DNA of 64,000 nucleotides from Phycisphaerales bacterium (GTDB lineage Bacteria; Planctomycetota; Phycisphaerae; Phycisphaerales; SM1A02), in the NCBI GenBank assembly GCA_007693845.1, contig RECV01000142.1, positions 1 to 64,000 on the forward strand, read 5' to 3'. The notes under the pieces are model-generated. The model saw only the letters and a program-made list of their open reading frames with translations, was not told the DNA's origin and searched no databases. Shown one piece after another: positions 17,523 to 25,142 of the stretch (positions are counted from its first letter, which is position 1; the number at the start of each line of letters is the position of its first letter). Position numbers and translations under genes: made by a program.

Positions 17523-20036
17523 TCAGGACTCCAGTATCAGCACAGTAAGGTTGATGCCCAGCGAGAGCATGGCATCGCCGACGATTAATCCCGCTGCAAA
17601 CGGCACGCCCCACGCTTCGGCCCATGCCGCGCCCTTGATCTTCTTCACCGCCATGTTGACGAGGCATCCGATGCCGTAGGTCGCGATGAACATGAACGGC
17701 AGGAACATCGAGATGCCGACGAGCACGCCCAGGCCGGAGAACGCGCCGAGCCCGAGGAGGCAGCCGAGAATCGCGCCGAAGCCGTAGAGCGCGTACGGCA
17801 TCTCGCCGCCCTGCACGCCGGTGATGACCGCTTCCAGTGCGAACGCCTGCGGCGCGGGCATGTCCACCTCCGGGCCGATCGCCACGCCATCGGTCACGAG
17901 GTTCGCCTCGGCAATGATGAAGAGGACGAACATGGCGATGATCGGTCCCATCCAGACGACGCACAATTCAATGAACTGCTGTCGCTTGGGTTTCGAACCG
18001 ACGAGATAGCCGGTCTTCATATCGCCCATCATGTCCGCTGCGAGGGTGATCGCCACACATAACGCCGCGCCGAGCAACACCGCGCCGAGCACCGCGCCGG
18101 AGCCGGCGAGCATCAGAACAAGCACGATCGTCAACAGCGACATGCCGGAGATCGGCGACCAGTCGGTCATGCCCGCGCACTGGGAAATGATGATCCCGGC
18201 AAACCAGATCCAGACCGCGCCGATGATCGCAATCACCGCAGCGCGAATGTGCGGATTCAACTGCGAAAGCAGTCCCGGCCGGGCGAACTCGGAAGCCATG
18301 AACGCCTTGCGCTGCTCCTCGGTCCACTCCATCTCCCACATGAGCGCTGCATCTTCGGTGGCAAAGCCGATCGTGTACCCGCCGTACTCCGCAGTGTCGA
18401 TCTGCCGATCGATCGGTTCGTTCGTAATGGGGCAGTTGCCGGGGTTGATGGGCGTGTTGCCGGCGATATCCGCCGCAATGAACAGCACGATCAGGCCGAG
18501 CACGATCGACACGCCGATGGTTTTCAATCCGAGTTCATCGCTGCCCGTCTTCAACTTGCTGGCCGCGCCGATCGACTTGATCGCTTCCCGAATGGCGGGG
18601 AAGGAGAAGACGATGCCGAGCATCGCGCCGCCGAGCAGCAGCCCGATCCCGAGCGGCCGCGTGAACTCGGTGAGACTGTATCCGCCGGCCTGGTGCGCCT
18701 GAATGGTCGCGGGCATCCAGCCGGAGTTGTACGCAAGCGGCGTGATGAAGAAGTAGGCGAGAATCCCACCCGCCAGGACGAACAATCCCGCCTTGCCGGT
18801 GATGTACCCCGCGCCGAGGGCGAAGGGCGCGATCGCCAGAATCAGCGGGAACTGACCCGGCAGGCCGATCCACCGGCCGATGTCGATCGAGTTGTCCGCG
18901 AAACGTTTGTCCGGCCTGCCATCGCGGTTGCGATCCACGCGCCGCGTGAGCACCGGATCCGCGCCAAGGTCTTCGGCCTGGACATGCGCGGTGGCTTCTT
19001 CGTCGACCTCTGCCGGATACCGCCAGGGAATGTCCTGGTAGCCGAAGATCGGCCGGGTCGCCCAACCCGTCTGCCGACTGATCAGTTCGCTCCATTCCTT
19101 CTCGCCTTCCGAGGCAAGATAGGCGCGTCGGGCGAGGTGTTCGTTGTACGGCACGGCCGCGAGATCCGCTTCCAAGGCGCGGCTGACTTCACGATACTGC
19201 GCACGAAGTTCGAGCAGATTGTCCGCGCGGGCTTTGGCGGCCTCATCGCGCAGTCGGAGCAGTTCTCGCCGAGCGGCCGCCCGTTCACCCAGAGCGTAGA
19301 CCTCCTGAGGGGCAGCTTCTTCTTCGATCCACTGCGCGATCATCAATGTGTGATCGCGCTCCTCCGGGGTGATTCGATCACGCTCAACCAGCGCATCGAG
19401 TTCATCGAGCGAGGCGGTGAGCTGGATCGACGGCAGCGAGGCGGGAAGAACGATGATCGCGCCCAGCAGGCAGCCGACGAGCAGGACGACCGCCTTGGCG
19501 GTCCCCGCGCCGGGTGACTTGAGGATCGTCGCCACGCCAGTCGGGCTGGGGAAACGCAGCCGCTCGATATCCAGCATCTGTTTTCGCAGCGGAATGATGA
19601 ACACCGTGCCGAGCAGCGCTCCAGCCACGCAGGCGAGGGTGATCGTCCAGAAATCACGGTCACCCATGGTGATCTGGTAGCCGAGCAGGAAAAGCACCGG
19701 CACGGTGAAGATCACGCCGGAGTTGGACGTGTTCACCGCGGAGGCGATCGTCTGCGCGATGTTGGTTTCGAGGATCGACCCCTTGCGCAGCATGCCGCGC
19801 AGCACGCCGAAGCCGAGTACGGCGGCGATCGCGGATCCGCCGATCGTGAAGCCGATCTTGAGGCCGGCGTAGGTGATCGCCGCGTTCATCACGATCCCGA
19901 TCAGGATCGCAAAGACGATCGCACTGACCGTCACTTCGCGGTAGCGGGTCTGGAAGACATCCTGCAGGACGTTCTCGTCCTGCGGCGGCCCTTTGGGGGG
20001 TGTCGGGGGAGGCGGGGTCGATTCATGCTCAGCCAT
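17523..20036 (-). CDS. OPT-family oligopeptide/metal-chelate transporter with YHS-like and Ca-type loop inserts
   Basis: An 837-residue polytopic membrane protein. The N-terminal NAAITYAGLKIGFTIGGS segment and the later AQTIASAVNTSNSG stretch are typical of prokaryotic OPT transporters, which import oligopeptides or metal chelates with protons. Two soluble inserts stand out. A charged helical region (about 215-385) ends in a DRNRDGRPDKR loop resembling a calcium-binding DxNxDG site. A shorter loop (about 533-580) starts CPITNEPID and continues EYGGYTIGF, which resembles the YHS/TRASH heavy-metal module with most cysteines lost. GAGG eight bases upstream supports the ATG. The small membrane gene downstream is coupled. 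Confidence 0.9.
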   Translation of the reverse strand: MAEHESTPPPPTPPKGPPQDENVLQDVFQTRYREVTVSAIVFAILIGIVMNAAITYAGLKIGFTIGGSAIAAVLGFGVLRGMLRKGSILETNIAQTIASAVNTSNSGVIFTVPVLFLLGYQITMGDRDFWTITLACVAGALLGTVFIIPLRKQMLDIERLRFPSPTGVATILKSPGAGTAKAVVLLVGCLLGAIIVLPASLPSIQLTASLDELDALVERDRITPEERDHTLMIAQWIEEEAAPQEVYALGERAAARRELLRLRDEAAKARADNLLELRAQYREVSRALEADLAAVPYNEHLARRAYLASEGEKEWSELISRQTGWATRPIFGYQDIPWRYPAEVDEEATAHVQAEDLGADPVLTRRVDRNRDGRPDKRFADNSIDIGRWIGLPGQFPLILAIAPFALGAGYITGKAGLFVLAGGILAYFFITPLAYNSGWMPATIQAHQAGGYSLTEFTRPLGIGLLLGGAMLGIVFSFPAIREAIKSIGAASKLKTGSDELGLKTIGVSIVLGLIVLFIAADIAGNTPINPGNCPITNEPIDRQIDTAEYGGYTIGFATEDAALMWEMEWTEEQRKAFMASEFARPGLLSQLNPHIRAAVIAIIGAVWIWFAGIIISQCAGMTDWSPISGMSLLTIVLVLMLAGSGAVLGAVLLGAALCVAITLAADMMGDMKTGYLVGSKPKRQQFIELCVVWMGPIIAMFVLFIIAEANLVTDGVAIGPEVDMPAPQAFALEAVITGVQGGEMPYALYGFGAILGCLLGLGAFSGLGVLVGISMFLPFMFIATYGIGCLVNMAVKKIKGAAWAEAWGVPFAAGLIVGDAMLSLGINLTVLILES

Positions 20037-20113: not shown

Positions 20114-21442
20114 TCAGCCCGCCCGAGCCGAATCTGCTTCCGGCATCCGCCACGCCGCGATGCTGCCCGCCAGCGCGATCACGATCAAGACGACGATCAG
20201 CACCTGCACGGTGAAGATATCGGCGATCACGCCCAGCCCGGCGGCGGCGACCATCGCCACTCCCACGATCGTGTTCGAGAGCGCGACCCACGTCGGTCGA
20301 TCATCCTTCGGCGAGGCGTCGATGATCCACGTCTTTCGCCCCAGTCGGATACCGCCGTGCGCAAGCCCGACCAACAGAAACACCAGGCCGTACACGTAGG
20401 CGTTCCGCCACACTTCAGGCAATGCATCGAAGAACAGCGCGAACACGCCCGCGCCACCCGCAATCAGCCCCGCGACGATCATCACCCCTCGGCTGGAGCG
20501 ATCGGCAAACTTGCCCCAGACCGGGCTCGAAAGAATCTCCGCCAGACTGACCGCAATGATGAAGACCCCGAGCGCGCTGGAATCAATCGGATCAAGTGAC
20601 CGCGCGTGCAACGCGTAGAACGGAATCGATAGTTCCACGCCGGTCAACAGACACCGCGCGATGATGAAGCGGCGGATGCTCGACTCACGCTTGAGCAGCG
20701 TCCAGCCACCTTTCAGTTCGGTGAAGACCGTGCGGCTGCCATCGCTCGCGCCGGGCGGTTCGACCTTGAAGGCGAACAGGATCGAGCCGAGCGCCCAGAG
20801 CGCCGCTGCGATGACGATGAGCAGAATGAAAATGCCGACCGCATCATCGTTCTCCACGGTCTGCCGCAGAATCAACCCTGCTCCTAGCGCGAGCAAGCCG
20901 CCGAGACTCGCGCGCAAGGCCAACATGCGGCCACGGCGTCCCTTGGTGATGGTTTTGCCCACCACATCGCTGAAGGAAACTGACCCAACGCCGCTGGCGA
21001 TCGAAAAGATGAGCAGCATCGTGACAACCGCGAAGCCGGCCCCGAGCGGGGGGAGAAATGCAACGGCAATCGCCATCAGCACAAGCGCAATCGCCTGCGT
21101 GATCCCCGCACCGACCCAGAACCACTTGCGCACCGCCTTGCGGCGAATCGCCCCGGCAACCATCATCTGCGGCGCGAGCGAGCCCGCACGCCGAATCGGC
21201 ACGAGCCACCCGGCCAGAAACGACGGCGCGCCGATCGCGGAGAGCAGCCACGGCAACACCAGTCCCGGCGAGGCGAGCTGTTCCGCCAGCTTGGTCGCCA
21301 TGCCGTTGCCGATGTTCAGAAAGAAGTTGCGCGGCTGATGGCGACACGCCGACTCGGGAATGTCCTCGCACAACCGATCTTCATCATCATCGCCGGTCAC
21401 GAATGCGTACGCGCGGCCGATGGTGTCCTGGTCATTCGACAT
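20114..21442 (-). CDS. Major facilitator superfamily transporter
   Basis: A 442-residue protein with about twelve hydrophobic segments after a 60-residue acidic cytoplasmic N-terminus (DDDEDRLCEDIPESACRHQ). An MFS-type loop (FSDVVGKTITKGRRGRMLALRAS) lies between helices. The substrate is unknown. It is followed on the same strand by the OPT gene only after a gap of about 80 bases, and preceded at 50 bases by the end of the type III PKS gene, so it could export the polyketide product. It has its own promoter candidate with an inverted repeat around it. Nothing in the sequence separates a drug exporter from a nutrient importer. Confidence 0.85.
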   Translation of the reverse strand: MSNDQDTIGRAYAFVTGDDDEDRLCEDIPESACRHQPRNFFLNIGNGMATKLAEQLASPGLVLPWLLSAIGAPSFLAGWLVPIRRAGSLAPQMMVAGAIRRKAVRKWFWVGAGITQAIALVLMAIAVAFLPPLGAGFAVVTMLLIFSIASGVGSVSFSDVVGKTITKGRRGRMLALRASLGGLLALGAGLILRQTVENDDAVGIFILLIVIAAALWALGSILFAFKVEPPGASDGSRTVFTELKGGWTLLKRESSIRRFIIARCLLTGVELSIPFYALHARSLDPIDSSALGVFIIAVSLAEILSSPVWGKFADRSSRGVMIVAGLIAGGAGVFALFFDALPEVWRNAYVYGLVFLLVGLAHGGIRLGRKTWIIDASPKDDRPTWVALSNTIVGVAMVAAAGLGVIADIFTVQVLIVVLIVIALAGSIAAWRMPEADSARAG

Positions 21443-21493: not shown

Positions 21494-22612
21494 CTACTGC
21501 GCCGTGGCCGGCAGAATCGGAAGCGCCTCGATGGTCAATCCCGGACCGAACGCCAACAACAGAGTCGGCAATGGTTCTCCGGCTCGCATCGCTTCCTCCA
21601 GAACGAACAGAACGGTGCCGGAGGACATGTTGCCCTTCTCGCAAAGAACCGTCCGGGCGGAGCGGAGTGCATCTTCATTCGGAAGCGAAAGGCCACGCTG
21701 CACCGCATCGAGAATGCCCGGCCCGCCGGGATGCACGCAGTATCCCGCAAGACCGATCCGATCGAAATGATCCTCGACGAACGATGCAATCGTCGCTTCG
21801 AGCGCTTCGGGCACACGTTTAGAGAGCGTCATCGCAAAGCCGGCATCGGTGATCCGCCAGCTCATCCAGTCCCGCCCTTCGGGAAGCAGCTTTGTTGCGC
21901 CGAGCGCGAGCCGGCCGAGCGAAGGCGGCCCCGATGCGGCGCCGTTCAATTCTTCGGATGGAGAACCCGTCACGATGACCGCGGCGGCGCCATCGCCGAA
22001 CAATGACGTTGCGACCTGATTCTCCATCGACTGATCATCGCGCAGATGCAGCGAACAGAGTTCACAGCAGACCACCAGCGCGCACGCATCGGGATCGGCA
22101 GCGCACGCGCCGATCGCGCTGCGCAAGCCGGTAATCGCGCCGAAACAGCCCATGTATCCGATCATGGTGCGCCGCACGTTGCCGGACAAACCCAGACGCT
22201 CAATCAGCGCAACATCCAACCCCGGCGCGGAGAAGCCGGTGCATGAGACCACGATCAGATCGGTCACGTCGCTCGCATTGATCCCGGCATCGCGAATCGC
22301 GCGATCGGCGGCCTCCATCGCCAGCGGCGGGGCTTCTTCGGCAAAAATGTCCATGCGCGCTGAGGTCGGCAGTGAGAACACCTCGCGCGGTGGGCGCGTC
22401 CCGTAACGCTGCTGAATCCCGGAAGCGCGGCAGAGGCGCGCCCATCGTTCGCGCCGGGTGCGGCTGAGTTCCCACAGTGACGCCAGTTCATCGATCAACT
22501 CATCCTGCCCGATGCGAATGTGCGGCACGGCCGTTCCAATGCTGCGCAGCAGCGGGGTCGTGCTAGGGCGCGAGATCCGGGGCAGGCGTTCCAGCGTGGG
22601 ACTGACCGTCAT
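21494..22612 (-). CDS. Type III polyketide synthase (chalcone/stilbene synthase-like)
   Basis: A 372-residue homodimeric ketosynthase that extends an acyl-CoA or acyl-AMP starter with malonyl-CoA and cyclises the chain to a pyrone, resorcinol or similar ring. The catalytic triad is visible: C156 in GYMGCFGAITG, H294 in CVHPGGPG and N328 in EKGNMSSG. The family C-terminal GFGPG is FGPGLTIE here. The ATG at 22612 overlaps the stop of the upstream FAD oxidoreductase as ATGA, so the two enzymes are made together. The frame is open further upstream but only as an overlap with that gene. Starter unit and product cannot be predicted from sequence. Confidence 0.92.
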   Translation of the reverse strand: MTVSPTLERLPRISRPSTTPLLRSIGTAVPHIRIGQDELIDELASLWELSRTRRERWARLCRASGIQQRYGTRPPREVFSLPTSARMDIFAEEAPPLAMEAADRAIRDAGINASDVTDLIVVSCTGFSAPGLDVALIERLGLSGNVRRTMIGYMGCFGAITGLRSAIGACAADPDACALVVCCELCSLHLRDDQSMENQVATSLFGDGAAAVIVTGSPSEELNGAASGPPSLGRLALGATKLLPEGRDWMSWRITDAGFAMTLSKRVPEALEATIASFVEDHFDRIGLAGYCVHPGGPGILDAVQRGLSLPNEDALRSARTVLCEKGNMSSGTVLFVLEEAMRAGEPLPTLLLAFGPGLTIEALPILPATAQ

Positions 22613-23796
22613 GCCGCCACCGCCTTGCCGGCCACCCGACCGGCGAGTTGCTGCGCGATGAACTGACGCCCGAGCGAAAAGCCGCAGACGGTGCGCACCA
22701 GTCCCGGTGCCCGCACCAGCCGGGCGATGGCCCGACAGCGACGTTGCGCCCGGCCGACCTCGCGCTGCCAATGCGCTTCGTAGGTGCGCGCGGTCGCGGC
22801 TGACCACTGGCCGTGTTGCTGCACGGCTCCGGCGAGCAGCAGCGCGGACTCCATCGCCCATGTCATGCCCTCGCCGGTGAAAGGTTCAATGTACCCCGCC
22901 GCATCCCCGATGAGCGCGCACGATCCGCCGGCAATCCGGTCGGGGGCGTGCGGCATCGGTCCGGCCGCGGTGAGTGACCGCATGTCGGTGGTTCTGATCT
23001 GATCGAGGCCAATCTGCTGGAGCATCTCGAAACGATTCGCCACGGCGCGCACGAATGCATCCGGGGCAAGCTTCTGCTCAGCCCGGGGCAGCACGAGCGC
23101 GCCGATGTGAAGCGTACCGCCCGCTTCGCGCACGATGCCAAGGTAACCCGTCCGGTCGAGAAACATTTCGATCGTTTCCGGGCGGAGTTCATGCTGGCCG
23201 GGGTCCTTGATCTGAAACGAGAACCCGTACCCCCGGCCGGTGCGCGATGGACTCCAACCGGCATGCCGCGCAACGCAACTGCGCAACCCATCCGCGCCGA
23301 CCAGCAGCCGGGTTCGCCATCGGGTTGTCGTTGCTTTGTGTGTGGCGGCCACGACCGCAGTATGACCATGGATGAATTCGATGCGCGCGGTCGCGGGCTG
23401 CATCACGATCGCGCCGTGTCGTGCGGCTTCATCAAGCAGCAACTGATCGAGATCCGTTCGCCTTACCATCAAACCGCGCGCGAGGCGAAATCGAACCGCG
23501 GCGCGACCGGACAGATGAAGGCCCAGCGCGCGGGTTTCACCGACCGCGATATCTTCGATCGGCTGTCGCAAGTCGATCGCATCAAGCTGGGGGAGAATGC
23601 GCGGGTTGAGACAGTGACCGCAGGTCGTCTCCCGGTTTCGCTGACCGCGTTCGATGATGATGATGCGCATGCCGAGTCGCGCCAGTTCACGACCGGCCAC
23701 CGCGCCGGCCGGACCGCCGCCGATGATGACAGCATCGGCGGATTGAACGCGGGAATCAGGCACGGGCATCTCCGGTCGGGATGATGAAACGGTCAC
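22609..23796 (-). CDS. FAD-dependent oxidoreductase, geranylgeranyl-reductase/monooxygenase type
   Basis: A 395-residue flavoprotein. The ADP-binding loop GGGPAGAVAGREL lies at about residues 26-38. The middle motif RWRTRLLVGADGLRS corresponds to the DG motif of FAD monooxygenases, and the second FAD motif is SCALIGDAAGYIEPFTGEGM. The family includes geranylgeranyl reductases and aromatic hydroxylases. Given the four-base overlap with the type III PKS it most likely hydroxylates or reduces the polyketide. The start is uncertain: GTG at 23796 or ATG at 23769, neither with a good ribosome site. Confidence 0.85.
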   Translation of the reverse strand: MTVSSSRPEMPVPDSRVQSADAVIIGGGPAGAVAGRELARLGMRIIIIERGQRNRETTCGHCLNPRILPQLDAIDLRQPIEDIAVGETRALGLHLSGRAAVRFRLARGLMVRRTDLDQLLLDEAARHGAIVMQPATARIEFIHGHTAVVAATHKATTTRWRTRLLVGADGLRSCVARHAGWSPSRTGRGYGFSFQIKDPGQHELRPETIEMFLDRTGYLGIVREAGGTLHIGALVLPRAEQKLAPDAFVRAVANRFEMLQQIGLDQIRTTDMRSLTAAGPMPHAPDRIAGGSCALIGDAAGYIEPFTGEGMTWAMESALLLAGAVQQHGQWSAATARTYEAHWQREVGRAQRRCRAIARLVRAPGLVRTVCGFSLGRQFIAQQLAGRVAGKAVAA

Positions 23797-23873: not shown

Positions 23874-25142
23874 TTAGCCCGCCGCCACAACCTTCTCCGC
23901 CACATCGACTTCCACGTGAACCGGTTCGCGCAGGACATACTCCCGCTTGAGGCGCGGGTTCAATCGGCAGAGCATTTCGTGAGCAAATGTCCCGCCGCTT
24001 TCAGCCAGGGCGGGCAGGTGATTGGACGCAGCGCGGTCATCGGAAACGAGTTCAACCGTCATTCCGACATCGATTGCGGCGCGGCCGAAGCGCGCCACGG
24101 CGTCGGTCAGGTCGATCGTGATCTGATCCATGTTCACCGCGCCCACGACCGGCACATCACACGATTCCGTGCGGCCGTTCGCATCGATGCGCAGTCGCAC
24201 CATGCCCCCCGGCGTGTCGTTGGCCAGCTTTGCATCGCTCGCGCCGAGGTTCATCGGATATCCATCGGCGTAACCGACGGGGACGACCCCGATGACGGCG
24301 TCGCGCGGCGCGGTCCACGTCGCGCTGTAGCCGATCGTTCGCCCCTTCGGCACGGAGCGCACCTGAACGAGGTGACTCTTCCACACCACGGCGGGTTGAA
24401 GTTTTTCGCCTTCGATGATGATCTCGCCGCCTTCGATCATCTCCAGGCCGTAACCGGCCCAGGCGAGACCGATACGAATCATGGAACGGTGGTATCGTTG
24501 CGCGCGAAGCGTTGCGAATGTGCTCGCGCAGTGAATCAGACAATCTTCAGGAATGAAGTCGCCCGCATGATCGATGATCTCATTGAACTGCGTGAACTGG
24601 CGATCGGTAAAGTCGAGGTCAGCTTCGGCGTGGGCGAAGTGGGTGTAGAGTCCCGCCAGTTGAAGGCGCGGATGCCGACTGATGCGCTCGATCAGCGCGA
24701 GTGCGTCATCCGCATCGCACCCGCCGCGGCTCATGCCGGTGTCGATTTCGAGGTGGACGGGAATCGCTGCACCAAAGCGTTCAGCGACCGTGATCAGATC
24801 GTTCAGGTGCGCGTCATCGTGCACCGTCAGATGCAGACGACGGCAGATCAGGGCCCGGTAGATCTCGTCCAAGCGATCGATCTCGCGGACGGGCATCAGG
24901 ACGAGAATCGGCGCGGTAATCGCGCGCTTCAATAGTTCGGTGGCTTCCGCGGGGTCGTACACCGCGAGCATATCCGCCCCCGCGCCGATCAGGGTTCGCG
25001 CGATGCGCGGCGCCCCCAGGCCATAGGCATCGGCCTTGACGATCGGGCACAGCCGGCAGGAATCGCCGACGATCCGCTTGAGCAGCCGCAGGTTATGACT
25101 GACGGCGGCGAGATTGATTTCCACGAGACTGGTTTCGCGCAT
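23874..25142 (-). CDS. alr: Alanine racemase
   Basis: A 422-residue PLP enzyme interconverting L- and D-alanine for peptidoglycan. The PLP lysine is K36 in CPIVKADAYGLG. The second catalytic base is the tyrosine in RTIGYSATW. The phosphate- and substrate-binding segments IRIGLAWAGYG and VNMDQITIDLTD are present. Length is slightly above the usual 360-380 residues. The start at 25142 matches the family N-terminus (VEINLAAVSHNLRLLK). The upstream open frame to 25721 only overlaps the divergent helicase gene. It is divergent from the DEAD-box gene across about 220 bases with no recognisable operator. Confidence 0.94.
   Translation of the reverse strand: MRETSLVEINLAAVSHNLRLLKRIVGDSCRLCPIVKADAYGLGAPRIARTLIGAGADMLAVYDPAEATELLKRAITAPILVLMPVREIDRLDEIYRALICRRLHLTVHDDAHLNDLITVAERFGAAIPVHLEIDTGMSRGGCDADDALALIERISRHPRLQLAGLYTHFAHAEADLDFTDRQFTQFNEIIDHAGDFIPEDCLIHCASTFATLRAQRYHRSMIRIGLAWAGYGLEMIEGGEIIIEGEKLQPAVVWKSHLVQVRSVPKGRTIGYSATWTAPRDAVIGVVPVGYADGYPMNLGASDAKLANDTPGGMVRLRIDANGRTESCDVPVVGAVNMDQITIDLTDAVARFGRAAIDVGMTVELVSDDRAASNHLPALAESGGTFAHEMLCRLNPRLKREYVLREPVHVEVDVAEKVVAAG

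Follow-up and report, generated by a model that had tools for sequence, protein, structure and literature searches.

A conserved FAD oxidoreductase–type III polyketide synthase gene pair in Phycisphaerales, a sister branch of the three-gene alkylresorcinol pathway lacking an adjacent methyltransferase

The window analysed here (i.e., the whole 64,000-nucleotide stretch of DNA) sits in contig C24 of the 3.26 Mb, 303-contig genome of a Phycisphaerales bacterium. On its minus strand, five genes follow one another in the order alr, FAD gene, type III polyketide synthase (PKS) gene, MFS gene and OPT transporter gene, with the following coordinates:

23874..25142, minus strand: alanine racemase gene (alr; TIGR00492, 244 bits)
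22609..23796, minus strand: FAD-dependent oxidoreductase gene (PF01494, 82 bits, 5.7e-23)
22609..22612, minus strand: ATGA, the FAD/PKS stop/start overlap (read from the sequence)
21494..22612, minus strand: type III PKS gene, 372 aa (PF00195/PF02797)
20114..21442, minus strand: MFS transporter gene (PF07690)
17523..20036, minus strand: OPT transporter gene

An earlier sequence-only reading of this DNA had described the PKS and FAD genes as overlapping by four bases, and its coordinates were correct: bases 22612..22609 read ATGA, in which the TGA stop codon of the FAD gene overlaps the ATG start codon of the PKS gene. The order of the two genes, which that reading had left unstated, is FAD first and PKS second. 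The FAD gene encodes 395 aa when started from the GTG at 23796 and 386 aa from the ATG at 23769, the latter (preceded by CCGGAG) being the likelier start. Terminator and promoter scans returned no more than shuffled sequences gave. Genome-wide, PF00195 was matched once. The AMP-binding (acyl-CoA ligase) family was matched three times, each time on another contig. A tblastn search of the whole window with two HidA-like methyltransferases revealed none.

Searched with the PKS, 39 of the 61 genomes from the window's own family and order gave a match, and a FAD homologue adjoined the PKS in 19 of the 20 loci with longer surroundings (the 20th contig starts inside the PKS gene). A scan of named genomes contributed at least 80 further loci, including hierridin-type operons from cyanobacteria and Gimesia. 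In a PKS tree of 99 rows (built, like the FAD and methyltransferase trees, with a quick method without bootstrap), the window's PKS fell into a clade of 43 rows (clade A; SH-aLRT 100), whose sister clade of 46 rows (clade B; 95) holds operons of the order methyltransferase-FAD-PKS, most of them planctomycete or cyanobacterial; ten rows lay outside both. The FAD tree repeated this split (clade A, 23 rows, 99; clade B, 17 rows, 77). PKS identity to clade B was only about 40%, and no characterised member of clade A was found.

Within clade A, 39 of the 43 PKS genes have the FAD gene upstream of them and in the same orientation, while the other four start less than 80 bases from the end of their locus. 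A 4-bp NTGA overlap was present in 38 of these 39 pairs (29 ATGA, 9 GTGA), which ruled out a chance overlap, and in 32 of the 45 clade B pairs (46 loci, 45 with a FAD gene), so that the arrangement has been kept more often than chance would allow. Because the stop/start overlap is conserved, here across many genera, FAD and PKS are probably coupled in translation, in support of the earlier proposal that the two proteins are made together. An adjacent methyltransferase, on the other hand, was found in 0 of the 33 clade A loci with room for one (at least 900 bases upstream) versus 42/42 such loci in clade B. Instead, alr was directly upstream of the FAD gene in 25 of the 33, although it is probably not part of the pathway. 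The FAD-PKS pair is real and conserved rather than an orphan, and constitutes a sister branch, so far given little attention, of a pathway known in its three-gene form; the branch of the window has probably lost its methylating enzyme or moved it elsewhere.

The PKS carries both the N- and C-terminal chalcone/stilbene synthase domains (PF00195, 108 bits, 5.5e-31; PF02797, 84 bits, 1.3e-23; cut-offs of 27) and the Cys-His-Asn triad. The positions of these residues, of a putative cyclisation switch and of a cysteine motif in the FAD protein are:

22145..22147, minus strand: PKS catalytic Cys156 (codon read; Cys in 43/43 clade A rows)
21731..21733, minus strand: PKS catalytic His294 (alignment and codon)
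21629..21631, minus strand: PKS catalytic Asn328 (alignment and codon)
21857..21859, minus strand: PKS Trp252, putative match of ArsB Trp281/ArsC Gly284 (cyclisation switch)
23611..23622, minus strand: FAD protein, CGHC motif (clades A and B: CGxC)

In both clades, every readable row had the triad together with Trp252 and Met261 (with Trp at position 252 in 42/42 readable rows of clade A and 46/46 of clade B). The ArsB Trp281 site was mapped by its nine-residue spacing (Trp252-Met261 corresponding to ArsC 284-293), ArsB and ArsC themselves standing outside the alignment. According to the available excerpts of PMC6274091, Trp versus Gly at this switch site in ArsB and ArsC directs resorcinol versus pyrone formation. 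The FAD protein is a member of the geranylgeranyl-reductase/flavin-monooxygenase superfamily, and both cysteines of its CGxC motif were invariant among 14 aligned proteins. Its fold and FAD motifs are compatible with a flavin-dependent aromatic hydroxylase.

Like the planctomycete mtr-fdo-t3pks operon (Milke et al. 2024; available excerpts of PMC10896814), the window pair lies on a single strand with the FAD gene directly before the PKS gene and the PKS gene last, and its PKS belongs to the sister clade, with active-site residues common to both. It differs in having no methyltransferase gene before the FAD gene, in the usual presence of alr upstream, and in the separate clades formed by its PKS and its FAD protein. 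In the hidABC hierridin operon of picocyanobacteria (excerpts of PMC8086630, which cites Costa et al. 2019), FAD-PKS corresponds to HidB-HidC, but HidA has no counterpart in the pair, so the order methyltransferase-oxidoreductase-PKS is not found; the oxidoreductase does directly precede the PKS, which is the last gene of the pair and is followed after 51 bp by the MFS gene. For long-chain starter enzymes, ArsB and ArsC of Azotobacter vinelandii offer a further parallel, with the ArsB Trp at the putatively equivalent position, but they stem from a different operon that includes the fatty acid synthase ArsA, a comparison made by description rather than alignment (excerpts of PMC6274091). The window PKS falls outside the operon-borne clade, a reference clade set by operon order and cyanobacterial members rather than by HidC, for which cyanobacterial relatives such as L047 and L049 stand in within the PKS tree. 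In srsABC of Streptomyces griseus, the PKS gene comes first and the methyltransferase gene (srsB) lies between it and the flavoprotein gene (srsC). The likeness to that system, i.e., a type III PKS and a flavoprotein working on an alkylresorcinol (SrsA is named in the excerpts of PMC10896814), rests on gene content, the SrsC sequence being outside the comparison.

From the sequence comparisons, we consider it probable (at roughly 0.62) that these genes represent the hierridin/planctomycete alkylresorcinol operon in a two-gene form, encoding an alkylresorcinol synthase and a ring-oxidising flavoenzyme. The available text of PMC10896814 reports that enzymes of planctomycete three-gene operons yield pentadecyl- and heptadecylresorcinols, and that the Gimesia maris, Rhodopirellula baltica and Stieleria maiorica PKSs produced alkylresorcinols in Corynebacterium glutamicum, whereas those of P. 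limnophila and A. californiensis, which lack the operon, gave no product on testing. This last result counts against our reading, as do the low identity to clade B and the failure to find a characterised clade A member. While the first three PKSs lie outside our tree, an uncultured Gimesia operon (L064) is placed in clade B. Given these three-gene-operon products, calling the product of the window pair unknown was too pessimistic.

In the proposed pathway, FAD protein and PKS would be translated together via their overlap, and Cys156 of the PKS would be loaded from fatty-acid metabolism with a long-chain acyl thioester. The earlier proposal that the starter comes from primary metabolism would agree with long-chain acyl-CoA or acyl-ACP, as for the characterised sister enzymes (excerpts of PMC10896814). 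Addition of three malonyl-CoA and a C2-C7 aldol condensation would then give a 5-alkylresorcinol, a product that we infer because of the sister position of the PKS and its active-site residues. The FAD protein would subsequently oxidise the resorcinol ring, most likely by hydroxylation, to an alkyl-hydroquinone or quinone, and methylation would either be absent or fall to a HidA-like methyltransferase whose gene lies at another place in the genome. In short, the pair probably makes, and then oxidises, a long-chain phenolic lipid. The role of the FAD enzyme was left open in the 2024 expression study, as far as its available excerpts go (PMC10896814), and coupled FAD-PKS sets with versus without an adjacent methyltransferase provide matched material for testing it. 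More generally, an apparently orphan polyketide gene pair now has its place in a defined branch, for which the product class can be tested.

Alternatively, the PKS might lactonise to alkyl-alpha-pyrones, with the FAD protein serving as a side-chain or isoprenoid reductase. The AlphaFold model of the PKS (pLDDT 90.0) indeed had as its best Foldseek match PKS18 (1ted, E 1.3e-36), which we take to be a pyrone synthase, and PKS11, deposited as an alpha-pyrone synthase, shares the Trp at the Trp252 column of the alignment, so this residue is not decisive for resorcinol formation. Moreover, the best NCBIfam model of the FAD protein is the geranylgeranyl reductase family TIGR02032 (147 bits, under the curated cut-off of 158.8), so that the protein might reduce a lipid double bond rather than oxidise the ring. 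However, PKS18 and an alga PKS have Leu at the Trp252 column, and resorcinols are what the sister-operon enzymes make (excerpts of PMC10896814), and we regard the combination of pyrone and reductase as unlikely. Still less probable, in our view, is that the FAD protein halogenates the phenolic ring rather than hydroxylating it. Its AlphaFold model (pLDDT 85.4) best matched flavin halogenases and monooxygenases, with PltA and FasV within the top four Foldseek entries and a geranylgeranyl-reductase-like protein at rank 25; the halogenase 8zop came first among the sequence matches, and hierridin C is chlorinated by a mechanism that the available text of PMC8086630 gives as unknown. Identity was only about 20%, however, and aromatic monooxygenases scored nearly equally.

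The absence of an adjacent methyltransferase, as claimed in the sequence-only reading, held, but a HidA-like methyltransferase is encoded on another contig (G000:C164:190-924) and tracks the PKS clade within the family, though not in a second family. With a Gimesia HidA-like query, weak matches away from the pair were obtained in most clade A genomes. Among 181 genomes of the window's family, this distant methyltransferase was present in 38 of the 41 with a clade A PKS versus 10 of the 140 others, the three clade A genomes without it being 76-88% complete. When a subtype associated with acyltransferase/KS gene clusters was taken out post hoc, 15 methyltransferase matches were dropped (L188, L190, L192 and L199 read as lipid clusters, L197 via shared neighbours, the rest by score or frame length) and the counts became 37/41 versus 5/140. 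In no shuffle within genera did PKS and methyltransferase coincide as often as observed (0/20000 for the full count; 0/50000 for the refined count, over nine genera), unlisted genomes without either gene, whose genus is not known, being counted in the totals only. In the methyltransferase tree, a distant clade (34 rows, 94) was sister to the operon-borne one (43 rows, 99), in parallel to the PKS tree, and NF004851 was the best NCBIfam model both for the methyltransferase of the window's own genome (126 bits) and for two operon-borne proteins (225 and 275 bits).

All of this favours a split but complete pathway, in which G000:C164:190-924 encodes the enzyme that methylates what the FAD-PKS pair makes; the distribution in a second family argues against it. 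Across 400 genomes of the order, a clade A PKS occurred outside the window's family in three, all of them from this second family and all with the methyltransferase. Yet 29 of the 32 second-family genomes with the methyltransferase had no clade A PKS, and 23 of those 29 had no type III PKS at E <= 1e-6. The second-family methyltransferase also follows that family's own phylogeny (20 rows, 99) and adjoins another FAD gene in 6 of 17 loci without a clade A PKS. Lipid-cluster neighbours weaken the split reading as well: in genome G017, the methyltransferase is surrounded by what by eye are KS-, ACP- and FabZ-like proteins. Since many second-family genomes have the methyltransferase without a type III PKS, the enzyme must have another role, at least there, and service to the window's PKS is therefore not claimed. 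The split pathway is a tentative reading to which we give somewhat less than even odds. Its extension to the whole branch, in which the alr-adjoining FAD-PKS pair would make an oxidised lipid that the distant, co-retained methyltransferase finishes, and in which uptake of a hierridin-type operon would replace both parts, is more doubtful again. If the split is true, a step of the pathway can escape genome mining that relies on gene adjacency.

In six second-family loci (L135, L201, L203, L204, L205 and L206), a FAD gene whose product has a KVCGE motif comes after the methyltransferase gene, closely or with overlap, and no type III PKS was found near these pairs; G054 and several other second-family genomes were without any type III PKS match. 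At L188, L190, L192, L199 and L126, the methyltransferase gene lies beside acyltransferase-like, KS-like or class III aminotransferase-like genes, to which L126:2-8963 (G017) adds ACP-like and FabZ-like genes in what by eye resembles an aryl-polyene-like lipid cluster.

The MFS gene had been proposed to export the product. An MFS homologue was present in 6 of 41 related genomes (three belonging to the window's genus and three to other parts of the order) and adjoined the PKS only within the window's genus (L022). Because the linkage is confined to the genus, this exporter assignment is weak and was rejected.

Among the records listed by our literature searches, none described a FAD-PKS two-gene branch without methyltransferase in this group; the two-gene variant described in the available excerpts of the 2024 study lacks the oxidoreductase, not the methyltransferase (PMC10896814). 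Near the FAD-PKS pair, L023, L025, L026, L029, L031 and L136 share a gene for a protein that is about 540-590 aa long and begins like MPRR.RF..AAL.EL.RQL.YAP, its copy in L029 being without a Pfam match. Directly 3' of the PKS gene in G017, a menaquinone biosynthesis gene (PF02621) is located at L031:9274-10209. The PKS matches of G147, G152, G157, G158, G159, G193, G195 and G212 contain one in-frame stop each, possibly as a result of decay or assembly error. In G028, a methyltransferase and a FAD monooxygenase gene come after a distant type III PKS gene (L137:7945-11532), an order resembling that of srsABC; the same genome also carries a FAD gene of clade A that lacks a PKS partner (L136:7005-8141). 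Finally, the Gimesia operon at L064:4723-8770 is flanked, by eye, by MMPL-like exporter, isoprenylcysteine-methyltransferase-like and cyclopropane-synthase-like genes.
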